From the NCBI GenBank assembly GCA_029567375.1, contig JAKQLB010000199.1:1-40085 (forward strand): a DNA stretch of 40,085 nt, given 5' to 3'. The notes below the pieces were generated by a model. The model was not told the origin of the DNA. It searched no databases and saw only the letters and a program-made list of their open reading frames with translations. The stretch's first letter is position 1, and each line of letters starts with the position of its first letter. Below, piece by piece: positions 2,733 to 9,761 of the stretch. The position numbers were made by a program, and so were the translations under genes. This DNA comes from Bacteroidota bacterium. Lineage in GTDB: Bacteria; Bacteroidota; Bacteroidia; Bacteroidales; UBA932.

Positions 2733-3470
2733 TTATTCGCCGTCACGCACCAGGAATGCGAAGATGAACGGGTCGTAACCGGTGCTGTCGAAGCCGGACA
2801 TCCTCTCCTGGCAGGTGAACACGCCGTTCTCGACGTGGGCGAGGGAAAAGCCGTTCACTGAAGGGTTGTACTGATTGGAGCCGCCCAGGAAGGGGACATC
2901 CGCATTCACGTCTGTCGGGAAATCACCCATCTGTGCCTCCCAAGGCTGGCTCCGGTAGGAGTAGGAGCAGCTGGAGAACTGCATATGAAGGAACACCCAG
3001 TGCTCAAAGATGACGCAGAAGGTTTCGGAACTCCAGTAGAGATACCTGGTCTCCTGGGTCATATTGATTCTGGTACGGGTGCCCTTGATGGGATTTCCGG
3101 GCTGGTTCTTCTGGGCGTACAGTGCCTGGATGAAGATGGTAATCTCGCCCTTGTCGTCAAAGTTGGTGAACTTCTCCAGGCAGATGGTATTCTTGTCCTT
3201 GATCCAGGACTTGATGGCGGTACCACCGTCGTTATTCCACGTGTAGGAAGAGTAAACATAGCGGTCCTGGAATGTCAGGATGACGCCGGCAACAGCACTG
3301 CGGTTAATCGAGAGGTCCGGAACATAAATCTCCAGTACGTCTGCGGCCTGGTAAGCTGCGTTCGTCGGATCATAGCTGAACTTGGCATTGAGAACCACAT
3401 AATTCTCCGCCTGGTAGTCCTTGAACTGAATGGTGCCTGCACCAAAGTTATTTCCTGTAGATGTAAACAT
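2733..3470 (-). CDS. Hypothetical protein, 245 aa, possibly structural
   Basis: I do not recognise this protein. It is rich in Tyr, Asn, Ser, Thr and Phe, with alternating hydrophobic residues suggesting beta structure, and has no signal peptide or membrane helix. Three cysteines cluster in the middle (around residues 148-168). It lies between two DUF6266-like genes and the holin/spanin-like pair, all closely spaced on one strand (8 bases after the paralogue ending at 3478, 11 bases before the holin-like gene). The composition and position would suit a particle or fibre component, but nothing in the sequence proves it. Confidence 0.65.
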   Translation of the reverse strand: MFTSTGNNFGAGTIQFKDYQAENYVVLNAKFSYDPTNAAYQAADVLEIYVPDLSINRSAVAGVILTFQDRYVYSSYTWNNDGGTAIKSWIKDKNTICLEKFTNFDDKGEITIFIQALYAQKNQPGNPIKGTRTRINMTQETRYLYWSSETFCVIFEHWVFLHMQFSSCSYSYRSQPWEAQMGDFPTDVNADVPFLGGSNQYNPSVNGFSLAHVENGVFTCQERMSGFDSTGYDPFIFAFLVRDGE

Positions 3471-3477
3471 AGCCGTA

Positions 3478-4536
3478 TTAGTAAAGGATTCCAGGTCCGA
3501 AGACCTCAGTGGGTTTCACATAATAACCGCCACGATGGGCGAAGGTGATAGAGGAACCATCCCAGCTGGAGTTACGCAGCCAGATGATGTAGGACTGGGC
3601 AGCGAAACAAGCGTTGCCCTCTCCCATACCACGGGCAAGAGCCATACTGGTGCCGACACAATCTGCCGGGAGTTCATCTTCGAGATAAGCCTCTGAAGAA
3701 GCGACATTGCTGTGGCCAAGGCAAACAGCATCGAAAGAGATGACCGGGGAATTCGTGGAGAAGTCCACATCACACTCCGATACATGGCTTTCCTCTTTGA
3801 GGTCGGCCATCGTGATCTTATTCCGTTTGACGTAGCCTTCTGCGGCAGCGTCTTCTTCAGATTCACAGACTCGGGCATCCTTTGTGGTCTGGCCGGTGAA
3901 GCCTGATACAGGGTCGAGCCAGTACATTTCAAGGAATACCTTCTGTCCGACAGCAGGTTTGACACCGAGTGTCTTGAAATACAGATAAGACAGATCAGCG
4001 TCGCCCCAGTCGTCCTCCATACCGGGAGTGATGATGACAGTTTTGCTCCAGCCGCTGGACACGCCGGCACTCTGGCCGGCAGACATCTTCACGACCATTT
4101 TGTAACCGGCTTCGTGCGCGATACCTTTAATTACAATGGTTTTGGGAGTGACCCAGATGTTCTCGTACGTCACGTTGGGAAGCGCAACCAGGGAAGTGGG
4201 GGCATCGGAAAGAATGCTTTCGCCAGCCATAGTCCTGCTCACGTTGAGACGGATGTAGAGATTCAGGCCGGAGATCTCGGCTTTCTGACCGAAGACGGAT
4301 GCACCGGAGCAATGTTCAGCCAGACGGTCCCAGCCTTGCATCTGGTCAGCCGTCAGGAGTTTGAAAGATTTGGAGATCTTGGAAAGCGACGCTCTTCTGA
4401 CTACCTGCGCAGAGGTGGTGGGGCCAGTAGGAAAACTCCGGACCGAAAGGATGGTACGGCCGCCGACTTGACGAGCCGTAACATCCTTGGCCGACCCGGA
4501 AAAGCCCCCGAAAGCGATGGAAGGAAGAGCTTGCAT
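3478..4536 (-). CDS. DUF6266-like protein, 352 aa (paralogue 2)
   Basis: The N-terminus carries the same module as the 230-aa protein: IAFGGFSGSAKDVTA, a basic stretch, TADQMQGWDRLAEH and ISGLNLYIRLN at about 95-105. The middle region has a beta-rich segment similar to the paralogue (KMSAGQSAGVSSG against ASEGQSNGVTRA). A C-terminal extension of about 130 residues ends in a WLRNSSWDGSSITFAHRGGYY stretch, similar to the end domain of some fibre-like proteins. A promoter box lies upstream at 4589-4596, so this gene probably starts the transcription unit that runs through to 1283. Function is unknown; multi-copy presence in one operon suggests variants of one displayed or structural subunit. Confidence 0.75.
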   Translation of the reverse strand: MQALPSIAFGGFSGSAKDVTARQVGGRTILSVRSFPTGPTTSAQVVRRASLSKISKSFKLLTADQMQGWDRLAEHCSGASVFGQKAEISGLNLYIRLNVSRTMAGESILSDAPTSLVALPNVTYENIWVTPKTIVIKGIAHEAGYKMVVKMSAGQSAGVSSGWSKTVIITPGMEDDWGDADLSYLYFKTLGVKPAVGQKVFLEMYWLDPVSGFTGQTTKDARVCESEEDAAAEGYVKRNKITMADLKEESHVSECDVDFSTNSPVISFDAVCLGHSNVASSEAYLEDELPADCVGTSMALARGMGEGNACFAAQSYIIWLRNSSWDGSSITFAHRGGYYVKPTEVFGPGILY

Positions 4537-4667: not shown

Positions 4668-5387
4668 TTAAAAAACGCAAGTTAAAACGAATGATTTTTC
4701 TTTGAATCTGCACCTGTAACCCGTCTCGGAATCGAGCAAAAGGTACCGGCAGTGAGCCTGATAGTTGTCGAGAGCGAATCCCCAGATCTGGCGGTAATCC
4801 CGGATCAGGAACTCGACAACCTCACCGTCTCCTGAAGATCCAGGGAGGGCAAGAAAGTTTCGCATCAGACCGGGATTCTTGCCATAGTCCGGACGCTCCA
4901 GTTGAAGCTTCAGAAGATAGCGGTAGCGATGGCCGTCTGCGTCCGGGCTGAAGGTGGAGCGGAACTGCAGAAGGAGGTTGACATCATTGACGACCGTGGC
5001 CGACAGGAAGTCAAGCGCAAAGACAGGGAAGTGGCCTTTTCTCTGGGGGACAGGGACGTGTTCATTGCCCAATTGCGCGAAGCCGTGGTAAGCGGATACG
5101 AACAAGTTGTAGCCGGATATGCTTGTCTTGGGGTCATACGGCAACCTGGAACTGGGAACTGTCAGCGCATACTCGTTCCAGATGCGTTGTACCTCCGGTT
5201 CCTGCTGACGCCAGGCTTCCAGGGCACGATGATGGAGCGCCACCTGGTCCAATTGCCCATCCGTTCCGGGAAAAGCCGATTCAGACTTGTCTCGATAGTA
5301 ACAGCGGCCGTCCCGGTGATAAAATGTTTTGTCACCGAGCGAACCCCAGCAATCGGAGATCATAATATCTGGATAAAAACGCGGCAT
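4668..5387 (-). CDS. DUF6266-like protein, 239 aa (paralogue 3, divergent)
   Basis: This protein aligns by pattern with the other two paralogues: an N-terminal WGSLGDKTFYHRDGRCYYRDKS, then a helical segment with QRIWNEYALTV and the closing ISGYNLFVSAYHGFA at about 90-105. The remainder is different, rich in Phe, Leu, Arg and Tyr, and may be a separate beta-rich domain. Its stop is followed by the promoter at 4589-4596, so it may be transcribed separately from paralogue 2. There is no signal peptide. The shared module suggests a common binding partner or assembly role; nothing more specific can be read. Confidence 0.7.
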   Translation of the reverse strand: MPRFYPDIMISDCWGSLGDKTFYHRDGRCYYRDKSESAFPGTDGQLDQVALHHRALEAWRQQEPEVQRIWNEYALTVPSSRLPYDPKTSISGYNLFVSAYHGFAQLGNEHVPVPQRKGHFPVFALDFLSATVVNDVNLLLQFRSTFSPDADGHRYRYLLKLQLERPDYGKNPGLMRNFLALPGSSGDGEVVEFLIRDYRQIWGFALDNYQAHCRYLLLDSETGYRCRFKEKSFVLTCVF

Positions 5388-5768: not shown

Positions 5769-6293
5769 TTAGCGATTATTCTTGAGCCAGGTCACCGGCC
5801 GGAGGAGATTCTCGAAGGAGTGGCGGTTGTCCATATACTGGGAAGGGTCCCATACGACATCGGAGTCCACATCAAAGATGTAGCCGCCGGCAGCCTCCTT
5901 GTCCTCCTGCCAGGAGTACATACAGATCCAGAGGACCAGAAACACATAACCCTCGCCGAAGTCGCCTTTGCAGAGAGATTCCGGAGCACTGTGGAGCATC
6001 TTGAGGAGTTCATAGATGTCGCCCAGGGAAGACTCGCGGTCAAACTCCTCGGATACCACGAAGTAATTGGAGACAGTTTCGCAAAGCTCAGCCACCTTCA
6101 TCAGGTCAAACTCGTGGACGTTGCAGGGATCACTGCCGGCAAAGCCGGACGGATGAAGACCGTTCAGACACTCAGCCTCCTTGGCCAGGCCGAGTTTGTG
6201 GACGAAAAACTCGTCGATATGCACATCGGGATAGAAGCCTCCGATAAGCGTCCCGATCTTGGGAACAGGAAAGGTATTATTGCTCATAGTCAA
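5769..6293 (-). CDS. Hypothetical protein, 174 aa
   Basis: I do not recognise this acidic, soluble protein. It contains several aromatic and Cys residues, with a helical central region (KVAELCETVSNYF; LGDIYELLKML). The start may be at 6293 or two codons later (MSNNTF). A -7 box lies upstream at 6355-6348. It is the first gene of the leftward set and borders the GC-rich structured region. Confidence 0.6.
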   Translation of the reverse strand: MTMSNNTFPVPKIGTLIGGFYPDVHIDEFFVHKLGLAKEAECLNGLHPSGFAGSDPCNVHEFDLMKVAELCETVSNYFVVSEEFDRESSLGDIYELLKMLHSAPESLCKGDFGEGYVFLVLWICMYSWQEDKEAAGGYIFDVDSDVVWDPSQYMDNRHSFENLLRPVTWLKNNR

Positions 6294-6347
6294 CTCAGTT
6301 TTAAGTTCTATATTTGACTACAAGTTACTCATTTTTTATGAGAATAA

Positions 6348-6355
6348 CAAATTTA
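6348..6355 (-). promoter_or_regulatory. -7 box for the 174-aa gene, facing a plus-strand -7 box
   Basis: TAAATTTG on the minus strand (6355-6348) would place transcription start near 6340 and the ATG at 6293. On the plus strand TATATTTG at 6309-6316 is a second perfect -7 box pointing into the structured region at 6410-7800. It could drive that RNA. No clear -33 element is visible for either. Confidence 0.4.
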
Positions 6356-6409
6356 TTCACAGGAGTTTACACACATTTTTGACCGTCAGAATCCACCATA
6401 TCCAGAGTA

Positions 6410-7800
6410 CCCGCAGCGGCGTCAGCCGCTGCCTCCTGAAGTATATATATAAACCCTTTTCTTTGCCGTCGAGCGGGGTAGTGCGGTCGAGTATGCACTG
6501 CCGTTCGGGCGTACGTCTCTTGGTTGGCCTTGGTTGCTGGCAGTCTCACAGCTGCCGGATTGGTGGGCAGGGTTGTGGGTGGCGGCTGTGAGTCTGCCAG
6601 TGACCAAGGAGCCGGAGCGTAGCGGAGGCTTGGCCCGGGAGGCGGTCTGGTGTTGTGGGGGAGCCGGGCTCTGGAGTGGAGCATCGGCAAGACCAGCCAG
6701 GGGCTTGACGGCGGAACGGAGGAGACCGGATCTGTGGGGAGGCAGACGGCCTCACGGGCCTGGGACGGAACGGCCCAATCGCTCGAACGAAGGTATATGG
6801 TTCGTGGCGGCGTATGCTGCCTGGCACTGACCCTCCGGCGCAGTCTAAGGCCGGTTTATCCGGACTTTGTCTGCGCCAGCAGCCGGAACGGCTGCCTCCC
6901 GGACGCCCGCAACACTTCTGGCGGGGTTTACCCCGGCAGAGGTGTGGAGGAATTGCGGCCGGGTATGACCACGCCGCAGGCGTACCGAGGAGCGGAGGGA
7001 CGGGACTCTTCTGACGGAGCCTGCGGAGGAAGAGGAGTCACGGCCAGGAGCGACCCAGCAGCGGAGCTGCGTAAGGCGGCAGGATGCTCGCAACCAACAG
7101 ACACTGAAAGCGGGTGATGCCGGTCGAGAAGCACTATGGCTGTGCGTGGCAGCGCCGAGGTAGAGGAATTGGGGAAATTGGGGCCCCGATTCCTCTGCCC
7201 GGCGCGGGGCTGGCAAAGGGCCGGGTGCAACCCGACCACTGCAGCCAGGCCCTTTCCTGCCGCCGCCTCGCCCGGGAGGTCAGAGGTACAACCCTCGCAA
7301 CTCACTGTCGGAGCGTACTTAACATAATCCGGATTGTGCTAACCCGCAGCAGGCAGGAGGTTCGGGCGGGGCACCGTTCCTTCGAATATTGATGCCTTTC
7401 AAGCGGGTGATGCCGCTGGTGCGAGGAGTTACACAATCCTTATGGGATTATGTTAATGTACGCGGATTCGAGACACTGCCGGTCGCACTGGCAGTTGGCT
7501 CCCGGGCGTTTATGGCCCTTGGGGGCGGTGGGGGACTAACCAGCACGGCGAGCTGGCGGTTGTGGAGCAAGCTCAGCGAGCGGAACAACCGACTGCTGGC
7601 CGTGACCTTTTTTCCTTATATGCGCGAAGCGCGGCGCGGAACGGCCGCGAGTCTCTGACCGGAGCGCTTGTCGCGGAGGGAAGAGTCTCGCAGTGGAGCT
7701 GCCATAAGTGAAGTTCGGAGGGGCGCTCTGTGCCCCGGAGGACGGAACCAAAGCGAGTGAGCGGAGCTTTAGCGCAGCGAACTGGCTTTGACCGCTTTTG
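6410..7800 (+). ncRNA. Candidate large structured non-coding RNA
   Basis: This 1.4 kb has no credible gene: overlapping open frames occur in every register and none resembles a protein. It is visibly GC-rich against its neighbours and packed with strong hairpins. Examples: 6413-6432 (8 bp, perfect); 6528-6556 with 6581-6609 (29 positions: 25 Watson-Crick, 3 G-U, 1 mismatch); 6837-6877; 6912-6945 (about 15 bp); 7162-7196 (13 bp); and a long-range helix of 7321-7338 with 7432-7454. Where arms deviate from perfect pairing, the five substitutions I checked are G-U pairs on the plus strand, which would be A-C mismatches on the minus strand, so the plus strand is the likely RNA. A 15-base direct repeat occurs at 7108-7122 and 7401-7415. 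I could not fit it to a group II intron, tRNA, rRNA or CRISPR. Large ornate phage RNAs such as GOLLD or ROOL are a comparison by size and setting only. Confidence 0.55.
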
Positions 7801-7856
7801 TTCTAATCGGCCGCGAAGCGGACGTCTTAATCGTCCCGCATCTATTCAACAATGAA

Positions 7857-7915
7857 CCCCCACATCATCCGATTGAGGGAAGTGGGGGATATGAGGGGAG
7901 TGAGGGAATATTGAT
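7857..7915. repeat. Repeat copy A (related to 23285-23342)
   Basis: A 59-bp stretch with CCCCCAC ... GTGGGGG followed by ATGAGGGG and TGAGGGAA units matches copy B over its whole length with scattered differences, in the same orientation. On the minus strand it could encode IPSLPSYPPLPSIG-stop, recalling the amidase tail (SISSFPPLSSFGYGGGE) encoded by copy B. It may therefore be a remnant of an amidase 3' end. The rest of 7801-7964 holds no gene. Confidence 0.6.
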
Positions 7916-7964
7916 CAATCACCATGAAATACTGATTCAACATATTCCAATTGGGCTGACATAT

Positions 7965-9605
7965 TTATTCCCACTTTACTGCCGTGCGCATCGCTAAAGC
8001 AATCGCTTCGCCGACTAGGGCAACATCGGCAAGGAGATAATGGCTCTTATGACCAAATGTTACCGTTGTGCCGGCAATCTCTGCGGTATGGAGGATCTTC
8101 TTTCTTACTTTGCTGTCGCCCAAGTATGTTGCGGGACCAAGGCCGAATGCGGTACCTGAAGGACTGAGACCGAAAACGATGGGGCCGGCATCAATGTCCA
8201 TTCCCAATATCGGCGATTTGTGTTCGTATTCTTTGAAACCAGTCAGAGGCCATTTCTTCAGGAAGCGTGTCTTGAACTTATCGTACTGGTCTCTTGCAAA
8301 GTCTTCATCGACATAACTGAGATAGTAGCAACTGAGGGCTGTATAGGAGCCCTTAACCGTCACGCAACTGGGGCCATCATAGTCATACATCACCATAGAT
8401 GCGATGATTCCTGATGATTCGGACAAGTGGTTCTTTTTCATGTTCTCCAGCCACTTATTGACCGTTGACCCGTACTTGCCTCCATACTCCTGAGAATAAA
8501 GCTTTAGCGCCACTATTGCCACCAGCATGTCCGGGATGTAAACATATTCGCCAGGATAGGTTTGGAGGTTAAGTCCCGGGCTGGCCAGAAGACGGCGGTT
8601 CATTGTGGCGCAGAGAGAATGGTAGAGCTTGTCGTATCGGCCATCGCCACCTGCGTGCTTATAACCGGCAATCATCCAGGCCAGATGACTCAGATAAGAG
8701 ATGTGGCTCTTCTCTCCGTCCAGAGACGTCAGCGGGTCTTCTCCCCAACGTTCAAGATCATATCGGCGCAGTTCTGGAGACATCACAATCTTTATGAGGC
8801 TGTCGATATGGATCACGGCATCTTCCCGAGTCTCCGGATATAGCTGTGCCATATTAACCAGAGAAGCCGAGAGCATAGAACAGGAATACAGCGCCCACTC
8901 GCCCTGGAACTGAGGACCAACAGCGGCCGGCACCCTGTCAATGAGCATCTGAGGCCCCGTAATGACCTTTTCCTGCAAGTAATTCCTGCGCCGAAGCAGG
9001 GCGGATTTCTCGGACTTGAATGATCCGATATTCAAGGTAGCAATGACCACCCACAACACTTTCAAGACCACCAAAGCAGCCAGAACTAAAAGTACAATCT
9101 TCATTCTTTTTCTTTTTTTGGCGCGAATCTCCGGATCGTCCTTATTCAGGACCTTGATGGCGTAATCGGCATCATCGTAGGAAATCCCACAATGAGGGTC
9201 GACTTCTATCCAATTGTCTTCCTGACCTTCGATGGCCTCGGAATCATCCATATCATCGATAACGACATATGCGTAATCATCAACGACATTCTCATCAAGC
9301 CACTGTTGTATCTCTTCCCCACGAGTATCGAAAATGCGGCCATCTCCCCATACCCCAGGAGTGCAGCCAACTATCTCACCCGGAAGGCCCCAGCTGGTCC
9401 AGACCTCTCGTATCTTCTCTAACCCGAGGTGCCTCCATGATGATGAAACCACTATCTGGGCACCGGTTTTCTCTACGATTCTCCGAAGGTTCCTCACCGC
9501 TATGTCGTCGAAATGATGGCCATACCGGTCAGGGTTCATGAATTCTCCCCGGCCTGTGTTCAGAGTACCATCGAAATCAAGGAATATGTATTTGCGGTAA
9601 TGCAT
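7965..9605 (-). CDS. HAD phosphatase-like domain fused through a membrane helix to an alpha-helical domain
   Basis: Residues 1-125 form a HAD fold: FLDFDGTLN with the nucleophile Asp, VVSSSWR (motif II), TPGVWGDGR and VVIDDMDD (motif III). This pattern resembles the HAD domain linked to Swiss Army Knife RNA repair proteins. A basic stretch and a transmembrane helix (about 168-191, KIVLLVLAALVVLKVLWVV) follow. The remaining ~350 residues are helical with repeated aromatic and Gly-rich turns, suggesting an alpha/alpha barrel outside the cytoplasm, possibly carbohydrate- or lipid-active. I chose ATG 9605 (ATG 9620 is possible); upstream in-frame residues look like non-coding repeats. The gene is third in a unit with the WG lipoprotein and MtgA. 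Such a fusion is unusual; a merged two-gene origin is plausible since a Met precedes the helix. Confidence 0.7.
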   Translation of the reverse strand: MHYRKYIFLDFDGTLNTGRGEFMNPDRYGHHFDDIAVRNLRRIVEKTGAQIVVSSSWRHLGLEKIREVWTSWGLPGEIVGCTPGVWGDGRIFDTRGEEIQQWLDENVVDDYAYVVIDDMDDSEAIEGQEDNWIEVDPHCGISYDDADYAIKVLNKDDPEIRAKKRKRMKIVLLVLAALVVLKVLWVVIATLNIGSFKSEKSALLRRRNYLQEKVITGPQMLIDRVPAAVGPQFQGEWALYSCSMLSASLVNMAQLYPETREDAVIHIDSLIKIVMSPELRRYDLERWGEDPLTSLDGEKSHISYLSHLAWMIAGYKHAGGDGRYDKLYHSLCATMNRRLLASPGLNLQTYPGEYVYIPDMLVAIVALKLYSQEYGGKYGSTVNKWLENMKKNHLSESSGIIASMVMYDYDGPSCVTVKGSYTALSCYYLSYVDEDFARDQYDKFKTRFLKKWPLTGFKEYEHKSPILGMDIDAGPIVFGLSPSGTAFGLGPATYLGDSKVRKKILHTAEIAGTTVTFGHKSHYLLADVALVGEAIALAMRTAVKWE

Positions 9606-9761
9606 GAGTAGACTCGTCATCGATTCTATGCAAAGATACAGATTTTCATTCGAGGGATAAATAACCGCCGTCCACTTTGTCCACAGGTGGACGGAGTGGA
9701 CAGGGTGGACAGTTGTAGACAAATTGTGCGGGGTGAATTTGCTTTGATTGCTTTCATTTAT

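Follow-up and report, generated by a model that had tools for sequence, protein, structure and literature searches.

What is the function of a GC-rich, hairpin-dense stretch of about 1.4 kb that is fitted by no gene and lies beside phage-like genes? The original prediction took positions 6410-7800 of the window (the whole stretch of DNA analysed, 40,085 nucleotides, which is contig C139 of genome G000; 400 contigs, 89% complete) to be a probable structured RNA of the plus strand, recalling the large ornate RNAs of phages. These coordinates are accurate within a few bases, and we refer to the structured non-coding unit from 6410 to about 7812 on the plus strand as S, whose left end is sharp and whose right end is approximate, as judged from homologues and covariation. 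S is a genuine folded strand of ~1.4 kb that has been kept in evolution, and it sits at an end of a phage-like element, so far undescribed, that occurs in gut and rumen bacteria.

S is a folded non-coding unit with relatives across Bacteroidales

The GC-richness of the region was confirmed, with 62-67% GC at 6501-7500 and 36-59% in the remaining 500-base tiles. Using 300-nt tiles and 30 dinucleotide shuffles of each, plus-strand fold energies gave z-scores of -4.5 (tile 6901), -3.9 (tile 7201) and -3.0 (tile 7501), with merely -0.8 for tile 6601 within S. Seven plus-strand tiles elsewhere in the window score z -3.0 to -3.9, which makes single-sequence fold energy modest evidence, and the case for S was therefore built on relatives.

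A search of 297 genomes with the DNA of S detected blocks of it in 18 (own genome counted), in a mosaic arrangement and often near contig ends, with L034 aligning across nearly all of S, L039 across most and the others in blocks. The exact pattern of its long-range helix, described below, was found in 49 stretches among 84,980 species genomes; 42 were taken as S, and seven were chance matches outside S and were dropped. By their titles 40 of the 42 are Bacteroidales, Bacteroidia or Cryptobacteroides, many from rumen, omasum or horse, and the remaining two are a Desulfovibrio bin and an Oscillospiraceae bin, both possibly mis-binned. Candidatus Cryptobacteroides choladohippi, of a genus placed in Bacteroidales, is one named relative with the pattern. 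When 398 genomes of a gut bacterial family were searched with a hairpin covariance model, 53 had a match at E<=0.001, among them 34 of the 207 good-quality genomes; the matches fall in 9 of the family's 25 genera. Phage and plasmid DNA records searched with S DNA gave no match, and none was found in IMG/VR with the hairpin pattern.

That no gene fits is borne out by 18 homologues, in which 97 of 676 gap runs have a length divisible by three, and a stop-free frame is seen in just one sequence. Genes on the minus strand in S of some relatives (stop-free stretches of up to 333 codons) were considered and rejected, because frames and gaps disagree between relatives. GC-rich repeat junk or a decayed gene would fit the high GC and the several contigs that end in S, but cross-species compensatory changes and non-triplet gaps speak against it, and we give this explanation hardly any credence.

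Within S, a terminal hairpin GCAGCGGC-GTCA-GCCGCTGC (6413-6432, plus strand) lies at the left edge and displays a G..A loop in 17 of 18 sequences, with 11 GNYA and 6 GNRA loops by our reading of the alignment (A6, see below), in which a conserved AT-rich block TATATATATAAAC (6442-6454) was also recognised. The -7-like box TATATTTG proposed on the plus strand at 6309-6316 is present, but it is outside the unit common to relatives, which starts at ~6410. In the single-sequence fold, a plus-strand domain at 7027-7616 holds the hairpin of the long-range helix, and a helix pairing 7027-7050 with 7593-7616 may close this domain. The 3' module (7617-7812, plus strand) is exchanged for other sequence in some relatives and in some occurs without the remaining S, several of these ending at contig edges. 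In L036 (690-2481) a gap of 1.5 kb separates the 3' module from the S domain before it, as though cargo had been inserted there. Adjoining S in the window is also a long frame (7965-9722) with an N-terminal match to HAD_SAK_2 (Pfam, E 5.7e-27) and a second, weaker match beyond it.

Compensatory changes support a plus-strand fold

To align the S 5' kilobase we used 18 sequences picked for a visible or alignable left end (alignment A6), which leaves out L064, L081 and L087, where the left end is visible, and two near-duplicates. RNAalifold gave 159 consensus pairs, 69 of which have both sides changed in at least one sequence, so that homologues with compensatory changes do exist and the original prediction withstands the lack of such homologues that it had named as its refutation. 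The predicted 29-position helix (6528-6556 with 6581-6609, plus strand; A6 columns 130-159 with 214-242) is present, is 86% complementary and is among the best supported, with columns 151/222 occurring as UA, AU, GC and GU.

Folded with RNA parameters, A6 had an energy of -220.7 kcal/mol as the plus strand and -176.5 kcal/mol as the minus strand; DNA parameters gave -101.4 and -86.1, respectively. At pairs with a Watson-Crick majority, plus-strand exceptions were 53 G-U vs 8 A-C, which extends to the alignment the earlier report that mismatches are G-U on this strand, and minus-strand exceptions were 36 G-U and 25 A-C. The lower alignment energy and the G-U excess thus identify the plus strand as the folded one, and fold energy is without power to separate RNA from DNA. 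The picture of a large plus-strand non-coding unit under structural constraint beside phage-like genes is therefore supported.

Such extensive one-strand covariation with G-U pairs kept would also suit a prophage-like element that transcribes its plus strand into a giant structured non-coding RNA in the style of GOLLD or ROOL, and in that case the hairpin described below would be either an RNA helix or a separate DNA site within an RNA gene. However, Rfam gave no match at gathering across the window, including none to GOLLD, ROOL or group II introns, and at E<=5 returned for 6000-8000 five weak and unrelated microRNA or sRNA matches far below gathering. The original RNA reading thus stands for structure, strand, non-coding nature and setting but not for membership of a known large RNA. 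Also against a giant RNA, the terminal hairpin with its G..A loop on the plus strand stands at the very edge of the unit and the sequence upstream cannot be aligned between relatives, for which reason no shared promoter is seen before S.

Two inverted dif-like sites form the long-range helix

The predicted long-range helix was found, with TTAACATAATCC (7319-7330) pairing to GGATTATGTTAA (7445-7456) at 12 of 12 positions, and it forms the stem of a hairpin in which two dif-like sites pair in inverted orientation, their centres being 6 and 11 nt long. Site 1 (7317-7344) has a XerD-like arm at 7317-7327, the centre TCCGGA at 7328-7333 and a XerC-like arm at 7334-7344, and on the opposite strand reads as the XerC-like arm, centre TCCGGA and the XerD-like arm TTATGTTAAGT. 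A variable inner region (7345-7425, plus strand), of 12 to 93 nt in relatives, separates it from the inverted site 2 (7426-7458), which has a XerC-like arm at 7426-7436, the centre TCC-TTATG-GGA at 7437-7447 and a XerD-like arm at 7448-7458.

Judged by sequence, the arms of the hairpin resemble the chromosomal dif of the bacterial family. The pattern AYAA-N6-TTATGTTAA gave 16 matches in 12 genomes, with 4 for the reversed control pattern; ten of the 16 have the centre TTTATA or TTTACA and occur one per genome, and the other six lie inside five S copies. In 40 same-genus genomes there were 41 matches vs 10 for the control, with exactly one match in 28 genomes, none in six and two or three in six. 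The TTTATA and TTTACA sites were taken as the putative chromosomal dif, and by our count site 1 of the window is identical to that of G003 at 18 of 22 arm positions. Genomes G004, G015, G029 and G094 hold S plus a separate TTTATA-centred site, so the S site is not the chromosomal dif. Several contigs stop inside S (e.g. L065, L067, L068 and L091), some within the dif-like sites, and contig C32 of G015 ends at the chromosomal dif; we read such contig ends as repeats or as structure that breaks assembly.

Pairing of the hairpin was examined in 38 sequences, 35 of them distinct (alignment A5). This omits five duplicates, L096, three loci cut at the hairpin (L065, L067 and L091), three in which site 2 is not intact (L068, L079 and L094), and 13 of the 19 DNA-search loci, which are without site 1 by strict expression and some of which hold diverged hairpins; two genomes of this kind, G145 and G176, match the hairpin model. 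In A5 94.5% of cells are paired, falling to at most 43% when the partner is slid by 1-3 columns. Both-side changes occur in 12 of 26 pairs, and the covariation score of 0.162, vs 0.070 shuffled, was reached by none of 500 shuffles, with a measure of further pair types being weaker (reached by 23 of 500). Eleven pairs of the arms and centre edges are invariant, a near-invariance that is partly imposed because an exact pattern spanning site 1 was used to find most A5 sequences, and the flanking and centre pairs change jointly, TCCGGA occurring with TCC..GGA, TCTAGA with TCT..AGA and CGAAAA with TTT..TCG. Diverged copies found with the model vary in the arms (e.g. TTTATACATAA or TTAACATAG) yet retain the layout. 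Near-fixed arms with co-varying flanks would be expected of a protein-binding duplex formed from one folded strand. In L206 (G373) there are two inverted hairpin copies ~15 kb apart with the D operon, described below, in between.

The same arrangement could be imagined as an invertible DNA segment, which XerCD or another tyrosine recombinase would turn around as duplex DNA for phase variation, the remaining S being incidental. Another genus does contain invertible-looking inverted pairs of dif cores with inner segments both ways round. However, the two centres of the hairpin are unequal in length in 37 of the 38 A5 sequences (6 vs 10-12 nt, with L034 having 6 and 6), the inner segments are as short as 12 nt, and structure of one strand is under selection across a kilobase, all of which makes inversion very improbable. 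The resemblance of the unit's centre to a DNA recombination site also speaks against a giant RNA. A combination, in which a DNA attachment hairpin would sit within a transcribed structured RNA leader or decoy at one locus, would suit a hairpin that looks like a protein-binding site, with near-fixed arms, in a unit whose rest is generic structure, but nothing forces two functions and we judge it improbable.

Small loops of S are of kinds stable in DNA

We next compared the loops of S in a census of 43 copies (52 kb) using perfect stems of at least 5, with five shuffles of each copy (261 kb) as control. The 43 copies displayed 224 triloops, including 102 GNA and 8 TNC, the latter being GNA on the opposite strand, and 72 tetraloops, including 5 GNRA, 9 GNYA and no UNCG, although these counts are not independent since relatives share descent. 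The shuffles gave 24 GNA, 15 TNC, 16 GNRA, 16 GNYA and 9 UNCG. With stems of at least 4 there were 139 GNA, 14 GNRA and no UNCG in the 43 copies, and 1 GNA, 3 GNRA and 3 UNCG in E. coli 16S plus 23S rRNA (4.4 kb), which is the sole RNA control for loops and has few of them. At this stem length the window copy alone has 5 GNA vs 0.45 expected, a number reached in none of 500 shuffles. In another 13 copies, most of them diverged and drawn from other genera and two viral contigs, there were 21 GNA vs 1.9 expected, 7 GNYA vs 0.55, 2 GNRA vs 0.9 and 1 UNCG vs 0.35. In conserved hairpins the loop retains its G and A and the middle base changes (GGA, GAA, GCA). The small loops are therefore mostly GNA and GNNA, with UNCG nearly absent and GNRA at most slightly enriched.

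In the published accounts, d(GNA) is a stable DNA loop family that behaves like RNA GNRA and favours C-G closure (PMC5815330), GCGAAGC-type hairpins are termed extraordinarily stable (PMC10527192), and GNNA and GNAB are listed as stable DNA tetraloops (PMC8373063, citing Nakano 2002). By our sum the closing pairs of GNA loops in S are 53 C-G and 44 G-C, with no strong C-G preference. The loop profile suggests, as we read it, that selection acts on single-stranded DNA, and the near absence of UNCG, the at most slight enrichment of GNRA and the strong enrichment of GNA and GNYA count against a giant RNA. Unpaired bases are enriched in A ~1.8-fold, as in rRNA, which would suit an RNA; the same enrichment is seen in S and 16S rRNA alike, and unpaired A was dropped as an RNA marker since it does not discriminate.

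Because the long-range helix is an inverted pair of dif-like sites and the loops are of DNA-stable kinds, we lean towards S being folded single-stranded DNA that carries a Xer-type hairpin and may serve as the cis-acting end of the phage-like element made up of S and the D genes described below (S-D), and we regard a giant RNA, the main rival, as less likely.

S is linked to a set of phage-like genes

Six genes that accompany S in the window, and whose kinds lie beside it in many loci, are all on the minus strand. D1 (1283-1975; 230 aa) comprises N-terminal helices and a fibronectin-III-like half, and is followed, in order of coordinates, by a lipoprotein with a C-terminal membrane segment (1972-2442), which we read as spanin-like and which has no family match, and by a small membrane protein, g2452 (2452-2721), which by our reading of its sequence is holin-like and belongs to no named family. 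Next are g2733 (2733-3470), with two beta-sandwich halves, receptor-binding-like in a model of pLDDT 90, then D2 (3478-4536; 352 aa), which is related to D1, and D3 (4668-5387; 239 aa). D1, D2 and D3 are three related proteins, with relatives in 32, 26 and 31 of 61 loci, respectively, counts that include paralogue matches, five duplicate loci and many loci cut by contig ends. D3 is present in all ten loci fetched around matches to the hairpin model, most of them diverged, and lies within ~2.1 kb of the hairpin in eight, at 2.9 kb in L207 and at 4.9 kb in L214. S adjoins the operon on the side of the D3 5' end or, where the operon is turned (L057 and L190), on the side of the D1 3' end; in the window, S and D3 are separated by two small genes.

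Endolysins of three kinds are found beside D1 depending on the locus (Amidase_3, M15 peptidase and phage lysozyme), and the lysis genes on this side include weak Rz-like spanin matches. The best scores of g2733 in VIA were Z 5.0-5.3 to attachment heads of phages and viruses, although such a Z can mean only a common arrangement; a cupin came first in Foldseek at low TM and was rejected. The C-terminal half of D1 matches fibronectin III at Z about 10, which is a very common fold. Phage-type genes are thus present, namely the endolysins and the attachment-head-like g2733 at modest Z. None of the families in Pfam, PHROGs and NCBIfam fits D1-D3 or g2733. We had likened D1-D3 to DUF6266, and this comparison was abandoned as no Pfam match supports it.

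Protein searches of D2 against phages, and of D1 against phages and plasmids, gave no match, and single queries of IMG/VR with D2 and g2733 found none. Alignments of D1 and D3 found two loci each in IMG/VR, on three contigs in total of which two have the hairpin; one contig holds S, D genes and an integrase beside D3, and another holds S, D3 and a terminase 5 kb off. In some loci a tyrosine integrase gene lies directly beside D3, as in L079 (2430-3758), L235 (6155-7621) and, judged by their similarity to L079, L062 and L064. We recognised no gene for replication or transfer in the unit. Structure, folded strand, conservation, dif-like arms and linkage to phage-like genes are all observed for S.

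The unit comes and goes in genus g11, where G112 and G123 carry it beside the same tRNA-Leu gene; at the same flank, 7-11 kb of sequence free of D genes is found in G133, G068, G100 and G329, and in G317 the contig ends. The 3' end of a tRNA or tmRNA faces the unit in 7 of 20 scanned loci (L205 and L232 being the same in place), with no clear direct repeat of the tRNA or tmRNA end in any of these seven. Phage-like genes with such tRNA or tmRNA neighbours (7/20 loci) would also suit a giant RNA, as reported for ROOL and GOLLD (PMC12286853).

Comparison with known systems and a possible route of recombination

The closest parallel to the hairpin is the CTX phage attP(+), described as two opposed dif-like sites ~90 bp apart with unequal centres that form a forked hairpin from the plus strand, and named together with the attP of the CUS-1F and Ypf-F phages (PMC3089051). 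Like CTX attP(+) as described there, S has close inverted dif-like sites, unequal centres and a stem from one folded strand. Unlike it, the S centre matches the host dif poorly in most copies, S was seen at none of the dif loci examined, the hairpin forms part of a folded unit of 1.4 kb, and we recognised no gene of filamentous phages. Substrates of a tyrosine recombinase that fold from a single strand, as is proposed for S, are also known from integrons, whose attC sites have an unpaired centre and a variable terminal part, but in S the arms are dif-like and there is usually one pair per locus.

GOLLD and ROOL RNAs are described as large and ornate, found in prophages and often near tRNA islands (PMC12286853). 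S shares with these descriptions its large size, ornate structure, prophage-like setting and the tRNA genes near some copies, whereas it is without an Rfam match and carries an embedded Xer-type site. Also in Bacteroidales, the BMV (Bacteroidetes microvirus proviruses) are reported as elements flanked by dif-like sites, three with an extra site near a terminus (PMC3091885); unlike S-D, whose genes are without a Pfam or PHROG family, they carry a microvirus capsid gene.

By BLAST, S was at none of 13 dif loci (1.5 kb on each side, two shorter); what matched was the dif site by itself in L108 and L109, plus 113 nt at weak similarity in L110. Counted from the XerC side, the centre of S and the dif centre TTTATA have one contiguous base in common for TCCGGA and TCTAGA, and three in L039; overall TCCGGA and TCTAGA agree with it at 2 and 4 of 6 positions, respectively. 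With no S at the 13 loci and this poor match of the centres, the results do not support simple integration into dif in the manner of CTX for most copies. The match in L110 (1477-1589) is in the flanks of the G004 dif and has 66% identity over 113 nt to S of L074, which could be fortuitous or could reflect a past exchange between S and dif.

We propose that S could be the cis-acting end of a small phage-like integrative element of Bacteroidales. The plus strand would turn single-stranded during replication, transfer or packaging and S would then fold, with the inverted dif-like sites pairing into a stem whose XerC- and XerD-type arms flank a bulged centre, as in CTX attP(+). Host XerC/XerD might then exchange a strand between the hairpin and a partner site, and the outcome could be integration, excision, monomer resolution or the exchange of modules among S copies. 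In this scheme we infer that single-stranded DNA is the acting molecule, that Xer binds it and that the reaction follows. That a family of phage-like elements has a giant structured DNA at the kilobase scale, with dozens of selected pairs and DNA-type loops, which would be a DNA analogue of ornate RNAs and would offer a host-like Xer site to the chromosome-resolution enzymes of the host, is an idea that we hold tentatively, at somewhat short of even confidence.

To our knowledge, the known cases of single-stranded DNA selected as structure are short (attC, attP(+), origins), and S, if correctly read, extends this class about tenfold, with 1.4 kb, one-strand covariation and DNA-type loops. It would also link large structured single-stranded DNA to Xer recombination in a phylum in which chromosome dimer resolution was described in 2011 as unstudied (PMC3091885). 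S points in addition to an undescribed phage-like element, with D1-D3 and g2733 outside the families of Pfam, PHROGs and NCBIfam, and if it were RNA instead it would be a giant RNA of a new class that carries its own recombination site.

Signs of other recombination at dif-like sequences

In L094 (3600-7350) a mobile element with three tandem recombinase-like frames, which by our reading may be of RIT type, lies exactly at the centre of site 2. The sequence GATAGA of this centre is present at both junctions, and the two halves of the site, XerC-like and XerD-like, lie on opposite sides of the element; one such junction is seen in L079 (1-80) with the centre ATGGGA instead. Other tyrosine recombinases may therefore use site 2, given that the element sits at its centre in L094 and L079. 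One of the junctions in L094 and L079 contains a perfect palindrome that repeats the six-base centre of the target in inverted form.

In another genus of the family, G092 and G076 (L167-L186) contain AT-rich segments between inverted repeats that have the dif core ATAA-TTTACA-TTATGTTAA. These repeats lie 124 to 134 bp apart; G092 has 14 complete pairs and G076 has 11, and single sites occur as well. By our reading the inner segment occurs in both orientations, and the arrangement resembles invertible promoters with a Xer-type core.
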